From contig NZ_JAQVCN010000022.1 in NCBI RefSeq assembly GCF_028689785.1, forward strand, positions 1 through 64,000: a stretch of 64,000 nucleotides of DNA, read 5' to 3'. The first letter of the stretch is position 1, and every line of letters begins with the position of its first letter. The notes beneath the pieces were generated by a model. That model was not told the origin of the DNA. It worked only from the letters and a program-made list of their open reading frames with translations, and searched no databases. Made by a program: the position numbers and the translations under genes. Positions 27,243-50,629 of this stretch are shown here, in pieces. The stretch is from Zoogloea sp. GTDB lineage: Bacteria > Pseudomonadota > Gammaproteobacteria > Burkholderiales > Rhodocyclaceae.

Positions 27243-27257
27243 TGGCATGGATCTGGC
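27243..27257 (+). promoter_or_regulatory. Putative sigma-54 promoter of nifB
   Basis: TGGCAT-GGATC-TGGC keeps the invariant GG-N10-GC of sigma-54 promoters but departs from TGGCAC and TTGC at one base each. It lies 60 bases before the nifB ATG at the same spacing from a NifA site as the other operons. Confidence 0.6.
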
Positions 27258-27316
27258 TATTTGTCTCTCAAACGAGACCTGTACGTCCCCCCGAACAGAG
27301 ACAAGGAGCCGCCTCC

Positions 27317-28888
27317 ATGCAAAGCGCCTACATCAGCCTTGGTGATCTGAAAGCCCATCGCAACGCCCTGGCCGAGCCCATCGCCAGTGAATCCGCCGGG
27401 GGCTGCTCCAGCTCGGGCGGCGCTGGCAAGTCCAGCTGCGGTTCGTCGGGTGGCCCCGACGACATGCCCACCGAGATCTGGGACAAGGTCAAGAACCATC
27501 CCTGTTACTCCGAGGAAGCCCATCACCACTTCGCCCGCATGCACGTGGCGGTGGCGCCGGCCTGCAACATCCAGTGCAACTACTGCAATCGCAAGTACGA
27601 CTGCAGCAACGAGTCGCGCCCCGGCGTGGTGAGCCAGAAGCTCACCCCCGATCAGGCGGTGAAAAAGGTGTTGGCCGTGGCCAGCGAGATTCCGCAGATG
27701 ACCGTGCTCGGCATCGCCGGCCCCGGCGACGCCCTGGCCAACCCGAAGAAGACCTTCGACACCATGCGCCAGCTCAGCGAAAAGGCCCCGGACATCAAGC
27801 TGTGCCTGTCCACCAATGGCCTGGCCCTGCCGGAGATGGTGGACGAGATCTGCAAGCACAACATCGATCACGTGACCATCACCATCAACATGGTGGACCC
27901 GGAGATCGGCGCCAAGATCTACCCGTGGATCTTCTGGAACCACCAGCGGGTCACCGGCGTCGAGGCTGCGCGCATCCTGCATGAGCAGCAGATGAGGGGC
28001 CTGGAAATGCTCACCGCCCGGGGCGTGCTCACCAAGATCAACTCGGTGCTGATCCCCGGCATCAATGACGAGCACCTGATCGAGGTGAACCGCGAGGTGA
28101 AGAAGCGCGGCGCCTTCCTGCACAACATCATGCCGCTGATCAGCGAGGCCGAGCACGGCACCCACTTCGGCCTCACCGGCCAGCGCGGCCCCACCGCCCA
28201 GGAGCTGAAGGCCGTTCAGGACGCCTGCATGGGCGGCGCCAACCTGATGCGCCACTGCCGCCAGTGCCGCGCCGACGCCGTCGGCCTGCTCGGCGAAGAC
28301 CGCAGCGAGGAATTCACCCTCGACAAGATCGAGGAGATGGACATCGTCTATGACATCGACAAGCGCCGCGCCTACCAGGAGAAGGTCGAGGCCGAGCGCC
28401 AGGCCCAGCACCAGGCCAAGGTGGACGCCCTGGCCGATGCCCTGGACGCCAGCCTGATCGCCGGCCAGGAAGACCTGAAGGTGCTGGTGGCCGTGGCCAC
28501 CGAAGGCCAGGGCCGGGTCAATCAGCACTTTGGCCACGCCACCGAGTTCCAGATCTTCGAGGTCAGCCGCAAGGAAGCCCTCTTCGTCGGCCACCGCCGG
28601 GTGGATCTGTACTGCCAGGGCGGCTATGGCGAGGACGAGCAGCTGCCGTCGATCGTCAATGCCATCAACGACTGCCACGCCGTGCTGGTCTCCAAGATCG
28701 GCGCCTGCCCCCGCGATGAGCTGAAGGCTGCCGGCATCGAGCCAGTCGAGGAGTACGCCCACGAGTTCATCGAGAAGGCCGCCCTGACCTGGTTTGCCGA
28801 CTACTGCGGGCGCGTGGCCAGCGGCGCCATCGTCCATCAGGAGCGCGGCGACGCCCGTATCCGCCAGGGCGCCGTGATGGCGGCCTGA
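27317..28888 (+). CDS. nifB: FeMo-cofactor core synthase NifB
   Basis: A 523-residue radical-SAM enzyme building NifB-co, the 8Fe-9S-C core of FeMo-cofactor. The radical-SAM motif ACNIQCNYC is at residues 82-90 (Cys 83, 87, 90). The N-terminus has a Ser/Gly/Cys-rich leader (residues 28-47). The C-terminal NifX/NafY-like carrier domain (about 395-505) begins [20 protein letters not shown]. An AAGGAG ribosome site precedes the ATG. It heads a plus-strand gene series to about 31.8 kb. The start and length match the fused NifB-NifX form of proteobacteria. Confidence 0.98.
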
Positions 28889-31504: not shown

Positions 31505-31840
31505 ATGATCCGCCAAGCCAGCGTCACCGGGCCCGGCGAACTCGTCCGCCGACGCATCCTGCGGGAGCTTGAGGGCCGTAGCCGCTACCGCTACGTGCAG
31601 CCCGACGTGGTCTGGTGCGACGAAGGCTGGCAGATCACTAGCCCCTGCTGCTCCCGCAACGTGGCTCCCGATGGCGGCGTGATCGACATCGCCCGCCTGG
31701 AGCACCCCGAGCCGGATGTGTGGCGCCTGTATGCCCGCGATCACGTGGCCGGCAGCTGGTCGTGGCATGCCAGCGCGGCACGCATCGAGGAATTGCTGGC
31801 GCTGGTGGTGGACGATGCACATCGGGTGTTCTGGCCGTGA
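31505..31840 (+). CDS. DUF3024-like hypothetical nif protein
   Basis: A 111-residue soluble protein. The C-terminal half VWRLYARDHVAGSWSWH, then IEELLALVVDDAHRVFWP, resembles DUF3024 (an uncharacterised family with WRLYW and DPxxCFW-type motifs). A CPCC-like TSPCCSRN pair sits in the middle. It is the last gene before a 650-base repeat region and so probably the end of the nifB transcription unit. Function unknown; the family call is tentative. Confidence 0.65.
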   Translation: MIRQASVTGPGELVRRRILRELEGRSRYRYVQPDVVWCDEGWQITSPCCSRNVAPDGGVIDIARLEHPEPDVWRLYARDHVAGSWSWHASAARIEELLALVVDDAHRVFWP

Positions 31841-31904
31841 GGAGGGGGTGATGAGGCGAGTTTTGTTTGGTTGCGCCCGTGCGGTGGGGGATTTCCCGAT
31901 TGTT

Positions 31905-32420
31905 GCGTACCGTTGGCCGGGACTCGCCCCGGCGGGCGACCTTCTTCTTTGTTGCACGACAAAGAAGAAGGCAAGAAAGCGTGCCCCGCTGTCGCGCCCC
32001 CTTCGGGGGTTCCCTCCTTCCGGCAATACCGGGCGGGGTCTTCGCAAACTCGCCCTTCGGGCTCAGACATGCGAAGCCCTTTTTCCGCCCGTCATCACCT
32101 CCAGTCGGCACGCCAGAGGGGAGAGGAAATGCAGCTTACCAACGGTCAGTGCCAACCGTTCTTTCCGCAGGGGCTCGGTGTATCCGGAAAGCCCGTTCCG
32201 ATCCGCCGAGCAGCGCAGCAGCAGGCGGGGCCTTCCGGTGCGGCTGTCTGAGCCCGCAGGGCGAGTTCCGCACCGGCCGCCTGCTGGGAGCAGCGCAGGG
32301 GAGTCGGCCGCAGGCCGACCGGTGAGGCGGGTCGCCTTCTTTGCCTTCTTTCTTGGCGAAGCAAGAAAGAAGGTCGCCCGCCGGGGCGAGTCCCGGCCAA
32401 TGCAACTGATTTATCGGGAA
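31905..32420. repeat. Large inverted repeat with hairpin cores, no gene
   Basis: The 650-base gap between the DUF3024-like gene and nifS holds two inverted, imperfect copies of an element of about 165 bp. Copy A (about 31905-32075) contains GGCCGGGACTCGCCCCGG, then CTTCTTCTTTG...CAAAGAAGAAG, then CTCGCCCTTCGGGCTCAGAC. Copy B (about 32245-32420) contains the same items reversed, with the hairpin CCTTCTTTCTTG...CAAGAAAGAAGG. The palindromic cores could end transcription of the nifB operon. Open frames across it look like noise. This element type is common between proteobacterial genes as I remember, without a settled name. Confidence 0.75.
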
Positions 32421-32493
32421 AGCCTTGCAGCAAAGGCTCTGTCACTCGTAAGCCCGGGGGCAATGGCGTCCCCGCTGCCAATGTAAGCCCCCC

Positions 32494-33633
32494 ATGATCT
32501 ACCTGGACAACAACGCCACCACCCGCCCCCTGCCCGCCGTCGTGGCAGCCATGCACGAGGCCCTGACCCAGAGCTGGGGTAACCCCTCGTCCAAGCATGC
32601 AGCCGGCGAGCAGGCCCGCAGCCGGGTGAGCGAAGCCCGTGCCGCCGTCGCCCGGCTGCTGGGCGCCCAGCCGGCGGAGCTGGTGTTTACGTCCAGCGCC
32701 ACCGAGGCCAACGCGATGGCTCTGCACGCGGCCCTGGCTGTGCCGGGGGCGCCGCGCCGGCTGGTGCTGTCGGCCATCGAGCATTCCGGCCTCGTGCAGG
32801 TGGCCAAGGCCTTGGCCGGGCAGGGCGTGGAGATCCTGCGCCTGCCGGTGGATGAGCGCGGTGTGGTGCTCACCGACTCCCTGCCGGCCCTGCTCGAAGG
32901 CGGCGCGGCCCTGGTGTCGGTGATGGCGGCCAACAACGAAACCGGCGTGATCCAGCCGGTGGCCGAGGTGCTGCGGCTGGCGAGCGCGGCGGGTGTTCCG
33001 GTCCATGTGGATGCCACCCAGGCGGCGGGGCGCGTCCCGGTGGATTTTGCTGGCTTGGGGGCGCGCTTTCTCACGGCTTCGGCCCACAAGCTGCACGGCC
33101 CCAAGGGGGTGGGCGTGCTGGTGGTGAAAAAGGGCGCGCCCTTCGAGTCCCTGCTGCCCGGCTACCAGGAGCGCAAGCGCCGGGGCGGCACCGAGAACGT
33201 GCCCGGCATCGTCGGCTTTGGGGTCGCGGCCCGGCAGGCCGAGTCGGCCCTGGCCGACGCGCCGCGCATCGCCGCCCTGCGCGATGCCCTTGAGGCCGGC
33301 CTGGGCGAGGCCTTGCCGGGGTTGAGGGTGTTCGGCGCCGGTGCCCCGCGCCTGCCCAACACGGCCTGCATGGCCTTCGGGCTGCTCGATGCGGAGGTGG
33401 TGCTGCAACGCCTGGCACGCGCCGGCATCTGCGTATCCAGTGGTTCAGCCTGCAGCTCGGGGGGCTCCGAGCCTTCCCCGGTGCTGCTGGCCATGGGGGC
33501 AGAGGTGGCGGCCGTGCGTGCGGCGGTGCGCTTTTCCCTGTCTGCCGACACCACCCCCGCCGAGATCGCCTGCGTCGTCGAAACCCTGCAGGCCGCCCTG
33601 ACACCGCTGCTGGCCGAAGCCTCACGTGCATGA
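32494..33633 (+). CDS. nifS: NifS-type cysteine desulfurase
   Basis: A 379-residue PLP desulfurase, shorter than IscS. Motifs: MIYLDNNATTRPLPAVVAAM, VHVDATQAAGRVPVDF, the PLP lysine in TASAHKLHGPKGVGVLVVKK, RRGGTENVPG, and the active cysteine in CVSSGSACSSGGSEPSPVLL. YLDNNATT and RRGGTEN mark the NifS branch. It is a second desulfurase besides iscS, with no nifU beside it. It is followed by nifT (40-base gap). Confidence 0.9.
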   Translation: MIYLDNNATTRPLPAVVAAMHEALTQSWGNPSSKHAAGEQARSRVSEARAAVARLLGAQPAELVFTSSATEANAMALHAALAVPGAPRRLVLSAIEHSGLVQVAKALAGQGVEILRLPVDERGVVLTDSLPALLEGGAALVSVMAANNETGVIQPVAEVLRLASAAGVPVHVDATQAAGRVPVDFAGLGARFLTASAHKLHGPKGVGVLVVKKGAPFESLLPGYQERKRRGGTENVPGIVGFGVAARQAESALADAPRIAALRDALEAGLGEALPGLRVFGAGAPRLPNTACMAFGLLDAEVVLQRLARAGICVSSGSACSSGGSEPSPVLLAMGAEVAAVRAAVRFSLSADTTPAEIACVVETLQAALTPLLAEASRA

Positions 33634-33673
33634 CCCGTATCTGAACCCATTACTCAACTTCCGGAGCCCCACC

Positions 33674-33883
33674 ATGAAAGTCATGCTGCGCAATACCCCC
33701 CAGGGCCTGTCGGCCTACGTGCCCAAGAAGGATCTGGAAGAGCCCGTCGTCGCCCAGGAAACCGCCGGCCTGTGGGGCGGCACCATCACCCTGGCCAACG
33801 GCTGGGTGCTGGCCCTGCCCGAGATGGCCGCCGAAACCCGCCTGCCCATCACGGTCGAGGCGCGCAGGGTGGGAGGCGAATGA
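33674..33883 (+). CDS. nifT: NifT/FixU family protein
   Basis: A 69-residue NifT: MKVMLRNTPQGLSAYVPKKD, WGGTITLANGWVLALPEM. The family is found only in nif clusters and its function is unresolved; deletions have little effect in Klebsiella. The stop overlaps the start of the next gene (TGATG). The start follows CGGAG. Confidence 0.93.
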   Translation: MKVMLRNTPQGLSAYVPKKDLEEPVVAQETAGLWGGTITLANGWVLALPEMAAETRLPITVEARRVGGE

Positions 33884-34146
33884 TGGCCCTCACCCCTGAT
33901 GACCTCACCACCCTGGCCAGCCTCGGCACTACCGCGTCCGACGTCGCCACCCTGGCGGCCGAGGCCCGGGCCCGCTGGAGCGGCCTGCGTGTCACGGTAG
34001 TGGATGCCCTCGATGTGCGGGGGGAAACCCCGGCTCTCGAGACGGCATCCGCCAATGTCTTCCTCATGGGGTGCGACGGCCATTGCTGGTCGATGACCAC
34101 CGACCCCGCTGCCGCTGCCGGCCTCGTGCTGGCTGCCAGGAGCTGA
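33883..34146 (+). CDS. Small hypothetical nif protein
   Basis: An 87-residue soluble protein, MALTPDDLTTLASLGTTASD, with a C-terminal FLMGCDGHCWSMTTDP carrying a C-X3-C pair. Two adjacent ATGs exist (33880 and 33883); the second is preferred because GGGAGG sits about 6 bases before it. The gene is tightly packed between nifT and the DegT-like gene. It resembles small uncharacterised proteins of betaproteobacterial nif clusters, but no family can be named with confidence. Confidence 0.7.
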   Translation: MALTPDDLTTLASLGTTASDVATLAAEARARWSGLRVTVVDALDVRGETPALETASANVFLMGCDGHCWSMTTDPAAAAGLVLAARS

Positions 34147-34148
34147 TC

Positions 34149-35345
34149 ATGGATGCCGCCGTCACGCCCCAGGATGTGGAACATGACGAGGACTGGATAC
34201 TGCTGACCGACCCGGATGTCAGCGGCCGCGAACTGGAGCGGGTGATCCGCGCCCTGCGCAGCTCCCGCCTGTCGTCCGGCCCCTTGGTCGAGGAGTTCGA
34301 GGCCGAGTTTGCAGCCCACCACGGCCGTGCCTATGGCGTGGCCACCGCCAGCGGCACCATCGGCATGTGGCTGGCCCTGCGGGCCCTGGGCATCGGGCCA
34401 GGGGATGAAGTGGTGGCCTGCAGCTACGGCTGGCACCAGACGGCCCACGCCATCCTGCTCGCCGGGGCCACCCCCAACTTTGCCGAGATCGATTACTGGT
34501 CGGGCTGCATCTCGCCGTCGGCTGCGGCCGAGCGTATCGGGCCAAAGACCAAGGCCATCATCGGCAACAACTGCAACGGCCATCCGGCGGCCTGGAAAGC
34601 CCTGCGCCAGCTGGCCGAATCCCGCGGCGTGGCGCTGCTGGAAGATTCAACCGAGGCCATCGGCTCGCGCTACCTGGGCAAGCCGGTGGGCAGTTTCGGC
34701 GATCTGTCGGTGTTCGACTTCTCCCAGCCCGGTGCCTTGTGCTGCGGCGAGGGCGGCATGGTGCTTACCGATGATCCGCATCTGGCCACCGAACTACGCT
34801 ACCTGCGCGCCCATCGCCTGGCCGATCGCGCCTCCGTGTCCATCGGCAGCCGGGTGCCCTTGCAGGGCAGCATGAGCGACCTCACCGCCGCCCTGGGGCT
34901 GGCCCAGCTTGAGCGCATCGACGAGATCCTGGCCCGGCGCAAGCAGGTGGAGGCCTTTTACCGGGAGGAGATGCAGAGCTTCGAGGGCATCAAGCCGCCG
35001 TATCTGGGCCCCGACGTGGACGAGGTGCACTGGATGCTCTACGTGGTGCACCTGGGCGCCCGCTTCAGCGCCAGCTCCCGCGCCCAGATCGTCGATGACC
35101 TGGAAGCCGATCTCATCGAGGCTGCGCCCTTCAGCGCCCTCATGCACCAGCAGTTCGCCTATCAGGCCCTGGGCGAGGCCTACAACTGCAAACGCGGTTG
35201 CCTGAAGAACACCGAACGCATTGGCGACCGTTCCCTGGCGCTGCCCTTTTACGGGCAACTGGGCGCCGACGAGGTCAAGTTTCTGGTCAAGACGCTCAAG
35301 GACGCCTGCACCAACGTGGGCGCTGGCGCCGCGATTTACCTGTAA
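34149..35345 (+). CDS. DegT/DnrJ/EryC1-like protein lacking the PLP lysine
   Basis: A 398-residue fold-I aminotransferase homologue of the sugar-aminotransferase family. Conserved parts: LSSGPLVEEFEAEFAAHHGR, VATASGTIGMWLALRALGIG, GDEVVACSYGWHQTAHAILL, GNNCNGHPAAWKAL, LLEDSTEAIGSRYLGKPVGS and GEGGMVLTDD. The position of the Schiff-base lysine (FHxxKxxxxGEGG in active members) is Gly195 in FSQPGALCCGEGG, with two cysteines (198-199) before the GEGG. It is therefore probably not an aminotransferase. It starts 2 bases after the previous stop and is followed 18 bases later by a SIR2-like gene. A binding, sensor or Fe-S-related role is possible. Confidence 0.82.
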   Translation: MDAAVTPQDVEHDEDWILLTDPDVSGRELERVIRALRSSRLSSGPLVEEFEAEFAAHHGRAYGVATASGTIGMWLALRALGIGPGDEVVACSYGWHQTAHAILLAGATPNFAEIDYWSGCISPSAAAERIGPKTKAIIGNNCNGHPAAWKALRQLAESRGVALLEDSTEAIGSRYLGKPVGSFGDLSVFDFSQPGALCCGEGGMVLTDDPHLATELRYLRAHRLADRASVSIGSRVPLQGSMSDLTAALGLAQLERIDEILARRKQVEAFYREEMQSFEGIKPPYLGPDVDEVHWMLYVVHLGARFSASSRAQIVDDLEADLIEAAPFSALMHQQFAYQALGEAYNCKRGCLKNTERIGDRSLALPFYGQLGADEVKFLVKTLKDACTNVGAGAAIYL

Positions 35346-35363
35346 GACACCCGAGGTATCCCC

Positions 35364-36242
35364 ATGACAAGCACCCTTGTTGCACCTGCCGCCGCTCCCT
35401 CCGATATCCTGCCCGATGGCCTTCCCGCCAGCCTGGTTGAAGCCCTGGCCACCGGCAGCGTGGTGCCCTACCTGGGCCCCCGCGTGCTGGCCCTGGCGGC
35501 TGACTACGCTGTGCCGGCCACGCCGGAAGCCCTGGTGGCCCTGCTCACCGCGAAGAGCTCCGTCCCCCACAAGATTCGCAATCGGCTCACCCAGTCGGCC
35601 CAGTACATCGAGAACTTCAAGCATCGCAAGACGCTGGTCGGCTTGATGAACGAAGCCTTTGCCGCTGCGCCCAAGCCGGCACCCCTGCACGAATCCCTGG
35701 CCGGCTTCGGCTTTCCGCTGATCGTCGATGCCTGGTACGACGACGCCATGGCCGCCGCCCTGTCGGCCCATGCCCCCACCGGCAGCTGGGGGCAGGTCCA
35801 GGGGCTGGCCCAGTCCGAACATTTCGGCACCTGGACCGGCTGGTATGACGCCGCCGGCGCGGCCGTGCCCGACTGCAATCCGGACTGGAAGACCATCCTG
35901 TACAAGCCCATCGGGGCCCATGGCCCGGCCGGCAACTACCTGGTGTCGGATACGGATTACGTGGAAGTGCTCACCGAGATCGACATCCAGACCCCGATCC
36001 CGGTGGAAGTGCAGCGCCTGCGCGCCGGCCGCAACTTCCTGTTCGTCGGCTGCCGCTTCAACGATCAGCTGCCCCGCGCCTTCGCCCGCCAGATCATGAA
36101 GCGTTCGTCCGATCGCCACTGGGCGGTGCTCCCCGACGAGCCGACCCGCATGGAGGCGCGTTTTCTGGCCGAGCAGGGCATCGAGCGCATCCCCTTGCCC
36201 CTCGACGCTTTCGTTCCCGCCCTTCTCGCCCGCCTGGGTTGA
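35364..36242 (+). CDS. SIR2-like (SIR2_2 type) protein in the nif cluster
   Basis: A 292-residue protein with the Rossmann-type SIR2 pattern: GSVVPYLGPRVLAL (residues 31-44, against VPFLGAGxS), HESLAGFGFPLIVDAWYDDA (109-128), YKPIGAHGPAGNYLVSDTDY (against KLHG ... T.DY), and NFLFVGCRFNDQLPRAF near the end. In active SIR2 NADases the motif TNYDD has a catalytic Asn; here it is AWYDD, with Trp124. NAD binding may remain but catalysis is doubtful. SIR2-like domains are best known from sirtuins and phage-defence proteins. The nif setting, between the DegT-like gene and a ferredoxin, suggests a nitrogen-fixation accessory instead. Confidence 0.75.
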   Translation: MTSTLVAPAAAPSDILPDGLPASLVEALATGSVVPYLGPRVLALAADYAVPATPEALVALLTAKSSVPHKIRNRLTQSAQYIENFKHRKTLVGLMNEAFAAAPKPAPLHESLAGFGFPLIVDAWYDDAMAAALSAHAPTGSWGQVQGLAQSEHFGTWTGWYDAAGAAVPDCNPDWKTILYKPIGAHGPAGNYLVSDTDYVEVLTEIDIQTPIPVEVQRLRAGRNFLFVGCRFNDQLPRAFARQIMKRSSDRHWAVLPDEPTRMEARFLAEQGIERIPLPLDAFVPALLARLG

Positions 36243-36284: not shown

Positions 36285-36581
36285 ATGGCTCAGCTCACCC
36301 TCCAGCCCTCCGGCAAGGCCGTCGACGTCGCCGCCGGCACAACGCTGCTCAGCGCCATCCTGGCTGCTGGCGAGCGCATCCACCACAAGTGCGACGGCAA
36401 GGCCCAGTGTGGCAGTTGCCACATCTTCATCCAGGAAGGCCGCAAGACCCTGCCGCGTATCCAGAGGCTCGAGAACGAGAAGCTCGACACCCTGGTCGGC
36501 GTCAGCAGCAAGTCGCGTCTGGCCTGTCAGACCCTGATGGGTGAAGAGCCGGTCACCATCGAGTTGCTCGGTTTCGTCTGA
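36285..36581 (+). CDS. [2Fe-2S] plant-type ferredoxin
   Basis: A 98-residue ferredoxin with CDGKAQCGSCHIFI (C-X5-C-X2-C) and the distal cysteine in SRLACQTLMGEEPVTIELL. It starts 42 bases after the SIR2-like gene, preceded by AGAAGGAAG, and is the last gene of the nifS-nifT series. It probably donates electrons in nitrogenase assembly or turnover. It differs from the isc Fdx and the Shethna-type ferredoxins elsewhere in the window. Confidence 0.9.
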   Translation: MAQLTLQPSGKAVDVAAGTTLLSAILAAGERIHHKCDGKAQCGSCHIFIQEGRKTLPRIQRLENEKLDTLVGVSSKSRLACQTLMGEEPVTIELLGFV

Positions 36582-43093: not shown

Positions 43094-44035
43094 TCAGGGC
43101 CGCGGGCGGGCGGCCAGGTTCAGCAGGGCATCGGTCTGCTTGACGATGGCGGCGGCGATGGTCCGGTCCAGGCGATCGAGCCAGGCGCGGGGCAGGGCGC
43201 TGGCGCCGCACTGGGCGCCGTGCAGCATGCCGACCAGGGCGGCGGTGGTGTCGGCGTCGTCGCCGCGGTTGACCGCACCGATCAGGGCATCCTCGAAATC
43301 GGCTTCGCTGAAGGTGAAATGGAGCACCGTCTGCAAGGTATCCACCACGTAGCCGCTGGCCCGCCCGGGGTAGGGCTGGAAGCGGAACAGGGGGTGGCTC
43401 ACCACGAAGGTATCGGCCAGGGGACGGCAGTCGGACAGGCGGCTACCGAGCAGCAGGCGCCGTAGCAGGCGGCCACAGATCAGGGTGGCGGCGTCGGAAA
43501 GCGGATTGTTGTGGGTGAAGCGGGCCTGGGCCAGGCTGCGGGTCTCGAAGGCGGCTTGGTCGTGCAGGGTGGCCAGGACCACCGGCAGGTTGCGCATCAC
43601 GGCGCCATTGCCCGCATCGCCGTCGCCTGCCGGGCCGGCGAAGGAGCCGTCGGTCATGTAGCGGCGGATGCCGCGCCGGCAGGTGTTGCCACAATCCACG
43701 GGCTTGCTGCGCAGCCAGGCCACGTAGGCCTCGGCTACGGCTTTCATGCACCAGCCGTCGGCGTCGAGGATGGCCTTGCCCAGGGCCAGGCACATGGTGG
43801 TGTCGTCGGTGACCTGGCCGGGTGCCAGCTTGAGCCAGCCGCCACCCGTCATGTGGCGATGCACGCCGTATTGGGCGGCGATCTCCCGGGGGGTCATGAA
43901 CTCAGTGGTGGCGCCCAGGGCGTCGCCGATGGCCAGGCCCAGGTAGGCGCCCAGGGCCTTGTCGCGCAGGCTGCCGGGGCAGAGGCCCGCGGGCAGGATG
44001 GAGGGCTGGGTACGCAGGAGGAGGGCGTCAAGCAT
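43094..44035 (-). CDS. draG: Dinitrogenase-reductase-activating glycohydrolase DraG
   Basis: A 313-residue ADP-ribosylglycohydrolase that removes ADP-ribose from NifH and reactivates it. Dimanganese-site motifs: GLAIGDALGATTEF, GQVTDDTTMCLALG, GDGDAGNGAVMRNLPV and NRGDDADTTAALVG. The start overlaps the draT stop by 8 bases. Its target arginine is present in NifH (Arg102 here). Confidence 0.96.
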   Translation of the reverse strand: MLDALLLRTQPSILPAGLCPGSLRDKALGAYLGLAIGDALGATTEFMTPREIAAQYGVHRHMTGGGWLKLAPGQVTDDTTMCLALGKAILDADGWCMKAVAEAYVAWLRSKPVDCGNTCRRGIRRYMTDGSFAGPAGDGDAGNGAVMRNLPVVLATLHDQAAFETRSLAQARFTHNNPLSDAATLICGRLLRRLLLGSRLSDCRPLADTFVVSHPLFRFQPYPGRASGYVVDTLQTVLHFTFSEADFEDALIGAVNRGDDADTTAALVGMLHGAQCGASALPRAWLDRLDRTIAAAIVKQTDALLNLAARPRP

Positions 44036-44897
44036 AGCGGGCCACCACTTCGTATTCGCCGCCGATCACCAGCACCTCGCCTTCTCCGGCCAGGGGGGCG
44101 CCCGGCAGCAGGCCGGGGAAGAACAGGATCTTGACCACCGGCACGCGTGCTTCGAGGATCCAGTCGCCGAACTCGTCGGCGCGCTCGCGGGAGGTGGAGA
44201 AGGACACCACGTTGTTGAGCCGCAGAATGCAGGCCCGGTCGCGCCGGTCGCCGGCAACCACCCGCTGTTCGGTGAAATCGTTGATGCCGCGCCACAGGGT
44301 CATGTAGTCCCGGGCGGGCAGCCCGAAGCGCTGGATGGCCCACTGGCAATACTCGAAGAGCAGGTCGAGTTGCTGGTGGATGCAGTTGTTGTGGAAGCGG
44401 CTGCTGCCCTTCTCTTCGATGTAGGCAATCCAGGCCGGTGAGGGGAAGCGGCTGAGGAGGGCTTTGTGAAAGGTCGGTACCAGGCCGAAGCGGCTCTCGG
44501 CCCAGCCCTTCAGCACGGCGCCGGCGGCGGAGTTGGAATCCAGCCCCCAGCCCTGCAGTAGCTTGAGGTAGCTGGAACGGTGCCGCGATCGCGGTGTGCT
44601 GCGGGTGCCGGGTTCGGGCGGGGCGAGACCGAAGACGATCTCCATGAAGTGCCGGAACACGGCCGATGCGGAAGCCAGGTCGCCGGCCGTTTCAAGAAGC
44701 CGGAACAGGCCGCGGTGGGTTTCGCGGACACCGGCAATGGCCAGTGGCTGGGGGTGGGCATTGAAGGCCGGCGAGCCGAGCAGGCCAACCGGCAGCCCGA
44801 CCAGGTTGGTCGAGTACCAGCGGCCGGGCTCGGTGCCCCGTCCGTCTCCGGCCCAGTCCTCCGCCACCGCCCCGCGGCGGGGCGACGGCTCGTTCAT
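44028..44897 (-). CDS. draT: Dinitrogenase reductase ADP-ribosyltransferase DraT
   Basis: A 289-residue enzyme transferring ADP-ribose from NAD to NifH arginine when ammonium or darkness/energy signals arrive. Family motifs: WYSTNLVGLPVGLLGSPAFN, RHFMEIVFGL, SSYLKLLQGWGLDSNS, YMTLWRGINDF and LRLNNVVSFSTSRERADEFG. It sits in an operon trHb-hypothetical-draT-draG divergent from nifHDK. Activity is usually controlled by PII proteins; no glnB/glnK is in the window. Confidence 0.96.
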   Translation of the reverse strand: MNEPSPRRGAVAEDWAGDGRGTEPGRWYSTNLVGLPVGLLGSPAFNAHPQPLAIAGVRETHRGLFRLLETAGDLASASAVFRHFMEIVFGLAPPEPGTRSTPRSRHRSSYLKLLQGWGLDSNSAAGAVLKGWAESRFGLVPTFHKALLSRFPSPAWIAYIEEKGSSRFHNNCIHQQLDLLFEYCQWAIQRFGLPARDYMTLWRGINDFTEQRVVAGDRRDRACILRLNNVVSFSTSRERADEFGDWILEARVPVVKILFFPGLLPGAPLAGEGEVLVIGGEYEVVARYA

Positions 44898-44911: not shown

Positions 44912-45499
44912 TCAGACCGGGCGGTTGGCGCCGAGATCGCGGATCGGACCCATGATCTTGAGGCCCTCCTCGTAGCTCAGCGGGGTGTAGGTGGCGGAGA
45001 ACTTGGTGGCGGCATTGGCCACGGCGTCCAGCTTGCCGGCGGTGTCGAACTTCTTGAGGTCGTTCTTTTCCAGGTACAGCAGTTCGAGGGTTTCGTTGTA
45101 CACGGTGGCCTCGTCGATGGGCAGCACGGTGTAGCTGATGTCGCCCATCTTGACGGTGTACTTCTTCGACAGGTCGATGTTGTCGCAGAAGACGATGTAT
45201 TTGCCGGTGGGTACGAAGTAGGGGCCGAGGACTTCATGCACCAAGGCCAGGTATTCGAAGGACAGCAGGAAGCTGCTGAAGAAGGGGATGGTGGCGCCGT
45301 CGTCGCAGACCATCATGACCTGGTCGGTGACGATCTCCGGCGGGCGCTTTTCGTCGGCGAACTGTTCGGCGAACTTCAGCGCGACGTCGCCGCGGAAGCC
45401 ATAGCGGCCGGCCTTCTTGGTTTCGCCCTTGAAGACCGGGTTGAGCAGGCGGCCCTTTTCGTCCAGGTCGAGGGTGGCATTAGCGAGGGTGGTGGTCAT
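44912..45499 (-). CDS. Unknown protein of the draTG operon
   Basis: A 195-residue soluble protein, MTTTLANATLDLDEKGRLLN, with FFSSFLLSFEYLALVHEVLG and YIVFCDNIDLSKKYTVKMGD. There is no signal peptide or recognised domain. The ATG at 45499 overlaps the trHb stop, so it is coupled to a haemoglobin gene; draT starts 15 bases after it. Codon use is like the nif genes. Function unknown, but position under a shared putative sigma-54 promoter points to a nitrogenase-protection or regulation role. Confidence 0.75.
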   Translation of the reverse strand: MTTTLANATLDLDEKGRLLNPVFKGETKKAGRYGFRGDVALKFAEQFADEKRPPEIVTDQVMMVCDDGATIPFFSSFLLSFEYLALVHEVLGPYFVPTGKYIVFCDNIDLSKKYTVKMGDISYTVLPIDEATVYNETLELLYLEKNDLKKFDTAGKLDAVANAATKFSATYTPLSYEEGLKIMGPIRDLGANRPV

Positions 45500-46052
45500 G
45501 ACTGCTTCCTTTGTCATTGCGGATGAAATCGGCGGTCTTGGCGAACGCGCGGGTGAGTTGATTCTTGAGTTCAGGGTCGGCGACCACGTCGTCCAGGGCC
45601 TGCGTCATGCACCGCATCCAGGCATCTCGCTCGGCCTGGCCGATGGCGAAGGGGAGGTGCTTGCGGCGCAGGCGCGGGTGGCCGCGTTCGGCGGAGTACA
45701 CCTGGGGGCCGCCCGTCCATTCAGTGAGGTAGCGCACCAGCACCTCCTTGACCGGGGCCAGGTTGGGGCCGTGCATGGCACGGATGGTGGCGGCCTGGGG
45801 GAGGCTGTCCATCAGCACATAGAAGCGTTCGACCAGTTTTTCGATCACCCCCACTCCGCCCAGACGGGTGAAGTGGGGGTTGGCGCTGGCGGGTTCAGAA
45901 GCCACCGACGGGGCGGATGGGGTGGCTGCCAGGGGCGGCGGCATGGGTTCGCCATAGACCGGGACGGCCCAGCCATCGCGCCGCAGATAGCCCACCACCA
46001 CCCGGGCTGGGCAGGTGGGCGGGGCGTTGGCAGGGGTGTCCGGCTTGCTCAT
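45480..46052 (-). CDS. Group II truncated haemoglobin with N-terminal extension
   Basis: A 190-residue protein. Residues from about 60 onward form a group II (O-type) truncated haemoglobin: LGGVGVIEKLVERFYVLMDS, IRAMHGPNLAPVKEVLVRYL, WTGGPQVYSAERGHPRLRRK and the proximal histidine in KHLPFAIGQAERDAWMRCM. An extension of about 58 residues (ARVVVGYLRRDGWAVPVYGE, then Pro/Ala-rich) is not part of the usual fold. It could bind or detoxify O2/NO near nitrogenase. It is the first gene of the operon divergent from nifH, and the next gene overlaps its end. Confidence 0.9.
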   Translation of the reverse strand: MSKPDTPANAPPTCPARVVVGYLRRDGWAVPVYGEPMPPPLAATPSAPSVASEPASANPHFTRLGGVGVIEKLVERFYVLMDSLPQAATIRAMHGPNLAPVKEVLVRYLTEWTGGPQVYSAERGHPRLRRKHLPFAIGQAERDAWMRCMTQALDDVVADPELKNQLTRAFAKTADFIRNDKGSSHDHHPR

Positions 46053-46494: not shown

Positions 46495-47412
<918 letters not shown>

Positions 47413-47415
47413 CGC

Positions 47416-47524
47416 GTCGAGAGTCGAGGGTCGAGAGTCGGGGCAGCAAGCGCCGGCTCTCCTCCGGTGCCTCCGGGCACCGGCCGGCGTGACCTGTGCT
47501 CGACTCTCCGCTCTCCACTCTCGA
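47416..47524 (+). promoter_or_regulatory. Long two-tier stem-loop between nifH and nifD
   Basis: Arms GTCGAGAGTCGAGGG (from 47416) and CGACTCTC...ACTCTCGAC (to 47524) pair at about 21 of 25 positions. An inner hairpin CCGGTGCC-TCC-GGGCACCGG lies at 47464-47483. The left arm is also a run of near-repeats of GTCGAGA. No T-run follows, so it is unlikely to be a terminator. A role in mRNA processing or raising nifH over nifDK levels is an inference. Confidence 0.7.
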
Positions 47525-47554
47525 CCACTCCATTTGATGACAGGAGCAATGAAA

Positions 47555-49003
47555 ATGAGCCTGACCGTTGATGAAAACAAGGCACTTATCGAAGAAGTGC
47601 TGAAGGCCTATCCGGAAAAGACTGCCAAGAAGCGCGCCAAGCACCTGGGCACCTTCGAGGATGGCAAGCCGGATTGCGGCGTCAAGTCCAACATTAAGTC
47701 CCTGCCGGGCGTGATGACCATCCGTGGCTGTGCCTACGCCGGTTCCAAGGGCGTGGTGTGGGGCCCGATCAAGGACATGATCCACATCTCCCACGGCCCC
47801 GTGGGCTGCGGCCAGTATTCCTGGGCCTCGCGCCGCAACTACTACATCGGTGAGACCGGCATCGACACCTTTGGCACGATGCAATTCACCTCCGACTTTC
47901 AGGAGAAGGACATCGTCTTCGGCGGCGACAAGAAGCTGGAGAAGATCATCGACGAGATCGAGGTCCTGTTCCCCCTGAACAAGGGCATCACCGTCCAGTC
48001 CGAATGCCCGATCGGCCTGATTGGCGACGACATCGAAGCGGTGTCGAAGAAGAAGGCCAAGGAATACGTCGGCAAGACCATCGTGCCGGTGCGTTGCGAA
48101 GGCTTCCGCGGGGTCAGCCAGTCCCTCGGCCACCACATCGCCAACGACGCGGTGCGCGACTGGGTCTTCGACAAGGTCGATCCGAACAAGAACGCGTTCG
48201 AATCCACCCCCTACGACGTGGCCATCATCGGTGACTACAACATCGGTGGCGACGCCTGGTCGAGTCGCATCCTCCTTGAGGAAATGGGCCTGCGTGTGAT
48301 TGCCCAGTGGTCCGGTGACGGCACCATCGCCGAGCTGGAGAACACCCCCAAGGCCAAGCTCAACGTGCTGCACTGCTATCGCTCGATGAACTACATCAGC
48401 CGGCACATGGAAGAGAAGTACGGGATCCCCTGGGTCGAGTACAACTTCTTCGGCCCGACGATGATCGAGAAGAGCCTGCGCGAAATCGCCAGCCACTTCG
48501 ACGACACCATCAAGGCCAATACCGAGAAGGTCATCGCCAAGTACCGCAGCATGGTTGATGCAGTCATCGCCAAGTACAAATCCCGCCTGGAGGGCAAGAA
48601 GGTCATGCTCTTCGTCGGCGGCCTGCGCCCCCGCCACGTGATCGGCGCCTACGAGGATCTGGGCATGGAAGTGGTCGGCACCGGCTACGAATTCGGCCAC
48701 AACGACGACTATCAGCGCACCACCCACTACGTGAAGGACGGCACGCTGATCTACGACGACGTGACCGGCTACGAGTTCGAGAAGTTCGTCGAGAAGGTCC
48801 AGCCCGACCTGGTGGGTTCCGGCATCAAGGAAAAGTACGTCTTCCAGAAGATGGGCGTGCCCTTCCGCCAGATGCACAGCTGGGACTACTCGGGCCCCTA
48901 CCACGGCTACGACGGTTTCGCGATCTTCGCCCGTGACATGGACATGGCCATCAATTCGCCGGTCTGGGGCCTCACCAAGGCTCCGTGGAAGAAGGCTGCC
49001 TGA
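47555..49003 (+). CDS. nifD: Nitrogenase MoFe protein alpha chain
   Basis: A 482-residue NifD. P-cluster ligands in [29 protein letters not shown] and [12 protein letters not shown]; FeMo-cofactor cysteine in [15 protein letters not shown] and histidine in [15 protein letters not shown]. The second of two close ATGs (47549 and 47555) is chosen because CAGGAG is 8 bases before it. It is followed 66 bases later by nifK. Confidence 0.99.
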
Positions 49004-49069
49004 TCCCTCTTCCGGGCGGGGCCCTGGCCCCGCCGCCCCGCCCTGATTACTGATTCTAGGAGTGCTGTC

Positions 49070-50629
49070 ATGCCCCAAAATGTTGAAAAGGTCCTCGACC
49101 ACGAAAACCTGTTCCGCGAGCCGGAATACAAGGCAATGTTCGACAACAAGCGGAGCCAGTTCGAGTTCCGCGTGCCTGCCGAAGAGCTCGCCAAGCAGAT
49201 CGAATACGCCAAGACCTGGGAATACCGGGAAAAGAACTTCGCCCGCGAAGCCCTGACGGTCAACCCTGCCAAGGCCTGTCAGCCGCTGGGCGCCGTGTTT
49301 GCCGCCGTCGGCTTCGAGAAGACCCTGCCCTTCGTGCATGGCTCCCAGGGCTGCGTCGCCTACTACCGCTCCCACTTCTCCCGTCACTTCAAGGAACCGA
49401 CCTCCTGCGTCAGCTCCTCCATGACCGAGGATGCGGCGGTGTTCGGCGGCCTCAACAACATGATCGACGGCCTGGCCAACACCTACAACCTGTACAAGCC
49501 CGAGATGATCGCCGTGTCCACTACCTGCATGGCCGAGGTGATCGGCGATGACCTGGACGCCTTCATCAAGACCTCAAAGCAGAAGGGCTCCATCCCGGCC
49601 GAGTTCGATGTGCCCTTTGCCCACACCCCGGCCTTCGTCGGCAGCCACATCACCGGCTACGACAACGCCCTGCAGGGCATCATCAAGTACTTCTGGGACG
49701 GCAAGGCCGGCCAGGGCACGGCCCTGACCCGTATCCCCAACGAGTCCATCAACTTTATCGGCGGTTTCGACGGCTTCGTGTGCGGCAACCTGCCGGAAAT
49801 CCGCCGCATGCTCGACCTGATGGGCGTCGAGCACACCATCCTGTGCGACCCGTCCGACGTGTGGAACACCCCCACCGACGGCGAGTTCCGCATGTACGAC
49901 GGTGGCACCACCAAGGCCCAGGTTGAAGCCGCGATCAACGCCAAGGCCACCATCAGCTTCCAGGGCTACTCCACCGAGAAGACCATGAAGCTGATCAAGG
50001 AGCATGGCCATGACACGACCAGCTTCCATCACCCGATGGGCGTGACCGGCACCGACGCTTTCCTGATGAAGGTCTCGGAACTCACCGGCAAGCCGATCCC
50101 GGCCGAGCTGGAGAAGGAGCGCGGCCGCCTGGTGGATGCCATCGCCGACAGCCAGGCCCACCTGCACGGCAAGAGGTTCGCCCTCTACGGCGACCCGGAC
50201 CTCATGCTGGGCATGACCGCCTTCCTGCTGGAACTCGGTGCCGAGCCGGTGCATGTGCTCTCCACCAACGGCGACAACGAGTGGGCTGGCAAGGTGCAGG
50301 CGCTGCTGGACGCCAGCCCCTTCGGCAAGAACTGCAAGGCCTACCCCAAGGCCGACCTGTGGCACATGCGTTCCCTGCTCTTCACGGAGAAGGTGGATTT
50401 CCTGATCGGCAACACCTACGGCAAGTATCTGGAGCGAGACTGTGGCACCCCGCTGATCCGCCTGGGCTTTCCGATCTTCGATCGCCACCACTACCACCGC
50501 TTCCCCATCTGGGGCTATCAGGGCGGCCTGCGCGTCCTGACCATGCTGCTCGACGAGTACTTCGAGGCCCTCGACGCCAATACAAATGGCATCGGGACTA
50601 CCGACTACTCCTACGACATCATCCGCTGA
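49070..50629 (+). CDS. nifK: Nitrogenase MoFe protein beta chain
   Basis: A 519-residue Nif[58 protein letters not shown] and the C-terminal [21 protein letters not shown]-cluster cysteines are in the first three motifs. The ATG has TAGGAG about 8 bases upstream. A strong terminator follows the stop codon, so nifENX are not cotranscribed here as in many nifHDKENX clusters. Confidence 0.99.

Follow-up and report, generated by a model that had tools for sequence, protein, structure and literature searches.

Two adjacent genes in a Zoogloea nif cluster encode proteins with the folds of a DegT-type sugar aminotransferase and of a SIR2_2 NADase, and both proteins have lost their catalytic residues. 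These losses point to a second job in making or running nitrogenase, probably a structural one. We give roughly even chances to the view that both proteins are nif-specific pseudoenzymes acting as docking scaffolds in the maturation or upkeep of Mo-nitrogenase, the SIR2-like protein as a general accessory and the DegT-like protein as a lineage-limited one. More tentatively, and with somewhat less confidence, we propose that they represent a nif accessory system, widespread and so far unnamed, that turned an NADase fold, often together with an aminotransferase fold, into docking scaffolds for Mo-nitrogenase maturation; docking would take place through the C-terminal tail of the DegT-like protein and residues 200-213 of the SIR2-like protein. 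A non-catalytic role had already been suggested by a sequence-only reading of this DNA and is also our best reading, since the catalytic losses recur in nif clusters under purifying selection.

Both open reading frames were recovered in the window (the whole stretch of 64,000 nucleotides of Zoogloea sp. DNA that was analysed), together with the residues that the sequence-only reading had singled out, namely Gly195 and Cys198-Cys199 in the DegT-like protein and AWYDD with Trp124 in the SIR2-like protein. The membership of both proteins in their families was confirmed by profile search. The features of the window are as follows.

27132 and 27172, plus strand: two NifA-type TGT-N10-ACA sites upstream of nifB.
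27243-27258, plus strand: sigma54-like TGGCAT-N5-TGGCT site upstream of nifB, spotted by eye.
27317..28888, plus strand: nifB, head of a likely operon (TIGR01290, E 1.6e-203).
From 29044, same strand as nifB: IscA-like gene.
31505-31840: DUF3024 gene, upstream of nifS (match in 53/58 loci fetched by the DegT protein, see below).
32494..33633, plus strand: nifS-like cysteine desulfurase gene (TIGR03402, E 2.3e-117, under the model's cut-off).
33626..33883, plus strand: nifT (TIGR02934, E 1.3e-30, match from residue 17).
33880..34146, plus strand: gene for an 88-aa conserved nif protein, ending 2 bp before the DegT gene.
34149..35345, plus strand: gene for the DegT/DnrJ/EryC1/StrS-fold protein with Gly195 at the position of the PLP lysine (398 aa; PF01041, E 3.8e-86).
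35313..35342, plus strand: C-terminal tail of the DegT-like protein, N-V-G-A-G-A-A-I-Y-L (residues 389-398), past the Pfam DegT match (26-383).
35364..36242, plus strand: gene for the SIR2_2-fold protein with Trp124 for Asn and Ile183 for His (292 aa; PF13289, E 3.9e-19).
35961..36002, plus strand: most conserved segment of the SIR2-like protein, V-E-V-L-T-E-I-D-I-Q-T-P-I-P (residues 200-213).
36285..36581, plus strand: [2Fe-2S] ferredoxin gene following the SIR2-like gene (PF00111, E 3.3e-11; match in 55/58 loci fetched by the DegT protein).
43094-44897: draT and a draG-like ADP-ribosylglycohydrolase gene.
46531-50629: nifH, nifD and nifK.

From nifB onward, the IscA-like gene, a 187-aa ORF without a name and the LRV-FeS, nifZ, DUF3024, nifS-like and nifT genes lie on one strand, and the intergenic gaps from nifT through the 88-aa, DegT-like and SIR2-like genes to the ferredoxin gene are -4, 2, 18 and 42 bp. 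The true start codon of nifT may lie inside the listed ORF. The NifA-type and sigma54-like sites are located approximately 6.9 kb upstream of the DegT/SIR2 pair, in the same gene string. The window holds 11 TGT-N10-ACA sites compared to 7.3 expected, so that this motif alone is weak evidence, and the sigma54-like site was absent from the results of a motif search allowing up to one mismatch. We know of no nif role for the DUF3024 protein. The 88-aa protein carries an invariant Cys69 in the motif H-C-W (57/57 rows) and has a weak match to DUF6129 (E 0.071), a family that was also matched by 6 of 15 relatives (best E 0.012). Several pieces that hold the second SIR2 clade described below also have a weak relative of this protein, located between the LRV gene and either nifT or nifK. 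A bacterial globin gene (45480-46052) lies upstream of nifH on the opposite strand and adjoins a 201-aa ORF without a name and draT.

The SIR2-like protein of the window reads AWYDD at the Asn motif and KPIG at the His motif; the Asn of TNYD and the His of KxHG are what we take to be the catalytic residues of SIR2_2 proteins. In a Foldseek search with its structural model, the top matches included ThsA and DSR2 (probability 1.00, TM approximately 0.6 by query length). Pfam assigned SIR2_2 only and no classical sirtuin domain, and a PDB sequence search with the protein returned a chance match only, so the comparison rests on Pfam, eight ordinary SIR2_2 rows and the model. Trp occupied the position of the catalytic Asn in 59/59 rows of a first set and in 94 of the 95 rows of a wider set (the W clade), the other row having Gly. 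The catalytic His was absent in 89/95 W-clade rows, K-x-H-G having become K-P-x-G in most of them, and the six rows that keep it are those of pieces L185 to L190. A second clade found near nifH (the N clade) has kept the Asn (36/36) and lacks the His (36/36); the two clades lost different residues, and the full Asn-His pair was present in 0 of 131 aligned nif SIR2-like rows (95 W-clade and 36 N-clade). These rows are part of the matches from the order, class and phylum samples, and some species occur twice among them (Derxia gummosa), so that row counts are not species counts. Both residues were present in the eight ordinary SIR2_2 rows, which came from the examined genomes and had been chosen by the Asn motif TN[YFW]D, so that only their His counts as independent; L218 and L219, which lack this motif, were left out of the ten candidate loci. 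One weak match (L150; 38 bits), from a genome without nifH over the cut-off, has Thr and Leu at the catalytic positions and falls in neither clade, which indicates that degenerate SIR2_2 proteins outside nif exist. In the SIR2 tree the W clade received an SH-aLRT value of 85, the N clade 99 and the union of both 50, with very long ordinary branches, so a single nif origin of both clades is weakly supported and not established. The window protein shares its fold and PF13289 with the SIR2_2 NADases of phage defence (ThsA, DSR2, KomC/HAM-SIR2), but differs from them in its replaced Asn and His, its 292 aa without a second domain and its location in a nif cluster. A known phage-defence protein was ruled out, as PADLOC gave no match.

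Within the order, the SIR2-like gene co-occurs closely with nifH. Among 399 genomes, nifH was found over the cut-off in 57, a SIR2-like match in 61 and both in 56 (Fisher p 3e-61). Four of the five SIR2-only genomes gave strong matches and the fifth (G332) a weak one; of the pieces from these genomes, L133, L151 and L171 hold other nif genes and L170 holds just the end of a DegT gene and a ferredoxin gene. The class sample (274 genomes) contained 25 genomes with nifH, 24 with a SIR2-like match and 21 with both, the SIR2-only ones being G477 (with a cut nifH in its piece L121), G571 (the weak match L150) and G664. Co-occurrence was weaker than in the order in the phylum sample (299 genomes: nifH in 36, SIR2-like in 16, both in 13), where G704, G728 and G897 were SIR2-only. 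The three samples overlap in some genomes. Genomes with nifH and no detected SIR2-like gene numbered 1/57 in the order, 4/25 in the class sample and 23/36 in the phylum sample, counts obtained with a search model built on the W clade, by which distant copies can be missed. At least one of nifB, nifS, nifT and nifZ was present in 35/36 W-clade pieces.

N-clade genes lie opposite to the nifH strand in 19/19 pieces holding nifH and on the same strand as draT in 15/15 pieces holding draT; in 6/36 pieces (L125, L127, L128, L155, L163 and L166) they are within 500 bp of draT, opposite to nifH. This arrangement would suit a sensor of NAD(H) or ADP-ribose, whose SIR2-like pocket binds its ligand uncleaved and signals the redox state or the presence of ADP-ribosylated NifH, in connection with DraT/DraG. 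Also consistent with such a sensor are the draT and draG-like genes in the window, the NAD binding of solved SIR2-fold homologues (according to the entry titles) and the G-x-G glycine loop that is kept in some nif rows (e.g. L041 and L190). However, the window protein has GPR for GAG in this loop as well as Trp at the Asn position, draT was found within 500 bp of the SIR2-like gene in 0/36 W-clade pieces, and a DraT match was absent in 10 of 29 examined genomes (drafts among them), all of which carry a SIR2-like gene. These ten genomes rule out a DraT-dependent role and weaken the sensor explanation as a whole, which we consider rather unlikely, although NAD could still be bound without being cleaved.

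The sequence-only reading had treated the two genes as a pair, and this holds when approached from the DegT-like gene. Of the 58 loci that were fetched with the DegT protein as query, 58 hold a SIR2-like match and 56 hold nifT; the SIR2-like gene mostly follows directly after DegT, at times with a ferredoxin gene between them. These loci provide the independent test of the pairing; a full DegT gene was also present in 22/36 W-clade pieces, but these had been fetched by SIR2, so their SIR2 presence counts for little. The pairing does not hold in the other direction: the SIR2-like gene has a much wider distribution, and DegT joins it in part of its range. A full DegT gene was present in 0/36 N-clade pieces and missing from 14/36 W-clade pieces (a contig end truncates at least L170), so that the SIR2-like protein does not need DegT there. 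An alternative explanation is that the SIR2-like protein alone is relevant to nitrogenase and that the DegT-like protein serves elsewhere, for example by carrying or binding a metabolite for the ferredoxin and the 88-aa protein. The W-clade pieces without a full DegT gene would fit, as would L185 and L188, in which DegT lies beside the 88-aa and ferredoxin genes and away from SIR2. We regard it as unlikely given the SIR2-like match in every DegT-fetched locus, mostly just after DegT.

The DegT-like protein (97% identity to its Zoogloea MAG counterparts) gave an AlphaFold model similar to the GDP-perosamine synthase structures 3bn1 and 3dr4, with TM scores of 0.83-0.92 among the chains listed (0.83-0.91 for those of 3bn1) and approximately 30% identity. 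The Schiff-base Lys column of 3bn1 aligns with Gly195, confirming, together with Trp124 at the Asn of the SIR2-like protein, that both proteins lack their key residue. Column 195 holds Ser in 46, Gly in 18, Leu in 9, Ala in 5, Cys in 1 and Gln in 1 of 80 nif DegT rows and Lys in none of them, compared to Lys in 22 and His in 3 of 25 non-nif rows. Recurrence of the two substitutions in nif clusters, which the sequence-only reading had put forward as a check, was borne out for the loss of Lys (80/80) and for Trp (94/95), whereas the residue that replaces Lys is usually Ser and not specifically Gly. The non-nif rows derive from the best-scoring loci among all matches: 31 loci entered the alignment and 29 rows were returned, of which four labelled canonical (L229, L246, L230 and L245) proved to be nif copies and were excluded; the remaining 25 rows represent 22 distinct genes because L237, L228 and L244 repeat L003, L004 and L005 of their own genomes. 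The DegT tree was built without these seven, and in it the nif DegTs (32 rows) formed one clade (SH-aLRT 100, stem 1.6).

A Lys displaced to a nearby position was ruled out, as residues 186-204 contain none in all 80 nif rows. Further changes surround the lost Lys: position 190 is Asp in 80/80 nif rows and Ser in 25/25 non-nif rows, position 237 is Pro in 78/80 and Gly in 25/25, and position 239 is Gln in 66/80 and never Asn, compared to Asn in 17/25, the usual G-[FY]-N-Y-R loop having become mostly P-L-Q-A-G. The Ser five residues before the Lys and the Asn of the neighbour loop are presumably the PLP phosphate binders, as in ArnB. With the Schiff-base Lys and the phosphate-cup Ser and Asn all replaced, PLP binding by the DegT-like protein appears unlikely. 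The family motifs are therefore not otherwise preserved, as had been stated, in the DegT-like protein and neither are they in the SIR2-like protein, given its altered K-x-H-G motif. Compared to the DegT aminotransferases (3bn1, 3dr4 and ArnB), with which it shares the fold, PF01041 and Asp166, the window protein has no Schiff-base Lys, a replaced phosphate cup, an extra conserved tail and a nif location. Dehydrases of the DegT family have a His in place of the Schiff-base Lys, and the DegT-like protein might likewise hold PLP or PMP without a Schiff base while the SIR2-like protein performs other NAD chemistry. Asp166 is kept in 80/80 nif rows and the Lys-to-His type does occur among ordinary DegT rows (3/25), but there is no substitute His in the nif rows (His at 186-204 in just 1/80), the residue in column 195 varies, and Asp for Ser and the loss of the Asn-Tyr-Arg loop also speak against altered catalysis, which we judge very unlikely. 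The Cys198-Cys199 pair had been proposed for Fe-S handling; the cysteines are not invariant (Cys198 in 47/59 rows, Cys199 in 33/59), and a role as an Fe-S site was ruled out.

The list of genes required for full nitrogenase activity is not yet complete, a gap that is relevant to the transfer of nitrogen fixation to other hosts. For the SIR2 side, a role appears to be already in print through an apparent relative from the other clade, because a non-polar mutant of PST1325 in Pseudomonas stutzeri keeps 23% of wild-type nitrogenase activity (PMC2820453; this and the following papers are cited from excerpts). PST_1325 is annotated as a ‘SIR2 family protein’ located before nifH (PMC11332353). PST1325 of strain A1501 resembles the window protein in its SIR2 family annotation and its place in a nif island, beside nifH, and differs in belonging to the Asn-keeping N clade, to which it was assigned by annotation and position rather than by sequence. 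Rcc03262 of Rhodobacter capsulatus, also of the SIR2 family, is encoded in the operon nifB1-rcc03265-nifZT-rcc03262 and was not found in the proteome of a nifA mutant (PMC6925177), while ZMO1821 of Zymomonas mobilis is described as a hypothetical protein with a SIR2-like domain (PMC8594446) and as a proposed deacetylase raised under N2 fixation (PMC8600466). Both are SIR2 family proteins of nif clusters that we liken to the window protein by description only; Rcc03262 follows nifT and depends on NifA, and the excerpts mention no DegT-like partner for either. A SIR2-like gene is also listed after nifT in Rhodovulum (PMC9412634), and further excerpts give PST1325 among the expressed nif-island genes and the extent of the Azotobacter nif cluster (PMC6053447, PMC10581106). 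The claim that neither protein has a described role in nitrogen fixation consequently fails on the SIR2 side (PST1325, Rcc03262, ZMO1821) and stands for DegT, for which nothing relevant in connection with nif was found in the open literature, which also yielded no experiment on the two window genes or on a DegT-like member. That the SIR2-like protein actively deacetylates lysines of Nif proteins, as annotated and proposed for ZMO1821, is most improbable, with the Asn gone in 95/95 W-clade rows (94 Trp, 1 Gly), the His gone in 36/36 N-clade rows and SIR2_2 in place of a classical sirtuin domain. A factor matched in 56/57 nifH genomes of the order, whose apparent Pseudomonas relative leaves 23% activity when disrupted, has been classed as a SIR2 protein and, in one of these papers, as a probable deacetylase; the finding that it lacks the catalytic pair alters the choice of useful experiments.

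Both genes are under purifying selection, as the sequence-only reading had supposed. In six Zoogloea pairs, dN/dS (Nei-Gojobori) was 0.027-0.145 for DegT, 0.067-0.174 for SIR2 and 0.120-0.353 for NifS, and DegT was below nifS in 6/6 comparisons. Values of 0.03-0.17 for the two genes rule out decay into pseudogenes. A second pseudoenzyme, the DegT-like protein, is under tighter constraint than NifS, which is encoded in the same string of genes; no mention of this DegT-like protein was found in the searched literature. Its most conserved nine-residue stretch is at the very end (residues 389-397, mean conservation 0.97 vs 0.70 overall). The tail motif N[VIA]GAG.[AS]IY was present in 77/80 nif DegT rows compared to 0/25 non-nif row ends, and 78/80 nif rows end at or one residue past [AT]IY, the other two ending in PIY. 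In the SIR2-like protein, conservation peaks in the 13-residue windows starting at 200 and 201 (mean 0.994 vs 0.65 overall; 95 rows). Residues 393-398 of the DegT-like model and residues 195-207 of the SIR2-like model, the latter overlapping the most conserved windows, have a pLDDT below 50, which may be due to shallow alignments (43 and 32 rows). The DegT tail is a possible docking peptide. In one locus (L116:8948-9382), what is left of the DegT gene, directly before the SIR2-like gene, is a short ORF with a match confined to the final 35 positions of the DegT model.

We infer a scaffold rather than a sensor, and a role in the assembly or upkeep of metalloclusters, because the neighbouring genes are mostly cluster-assembly genes and the most conserved parts of both proteins resemble docking segments; assembly is probably the step served. 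The SIR2-like protein would serve proteobacterial Mo-nitrogenase as a general accessory factor and would have arisen from a SIR2_2 NADase fold by loss of catalysis. Its lineage-limited partner, the DegT-like protein, would go back to a sugar aminotransferase in which the Lys and the phosphate cup were lost. Both would bind proteins as scaffolds alongside NifB, the IscA-like protein, LRV-FeS, NifZ, NifS, NifT and the ferredoxin, with the SIR2-like segment 200-213 and the DegT C-terminal tail as the candidate docking sites.

In the window, the DUF3024 gene and nifS are separated by a stretch of approximately 650 bp (31841-32493), which contains 63-nt inverted arms (31889-31951 and 32362-32424) that are 83% complementary. 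Related stretches were found in other Zoogloea loci, including four matches at 13.0-16.6 kb of L015, a locus in which only about 10 bp separate the DUF3024 gene from nifS, and the stretch looks like a Zoogloea repeat element.
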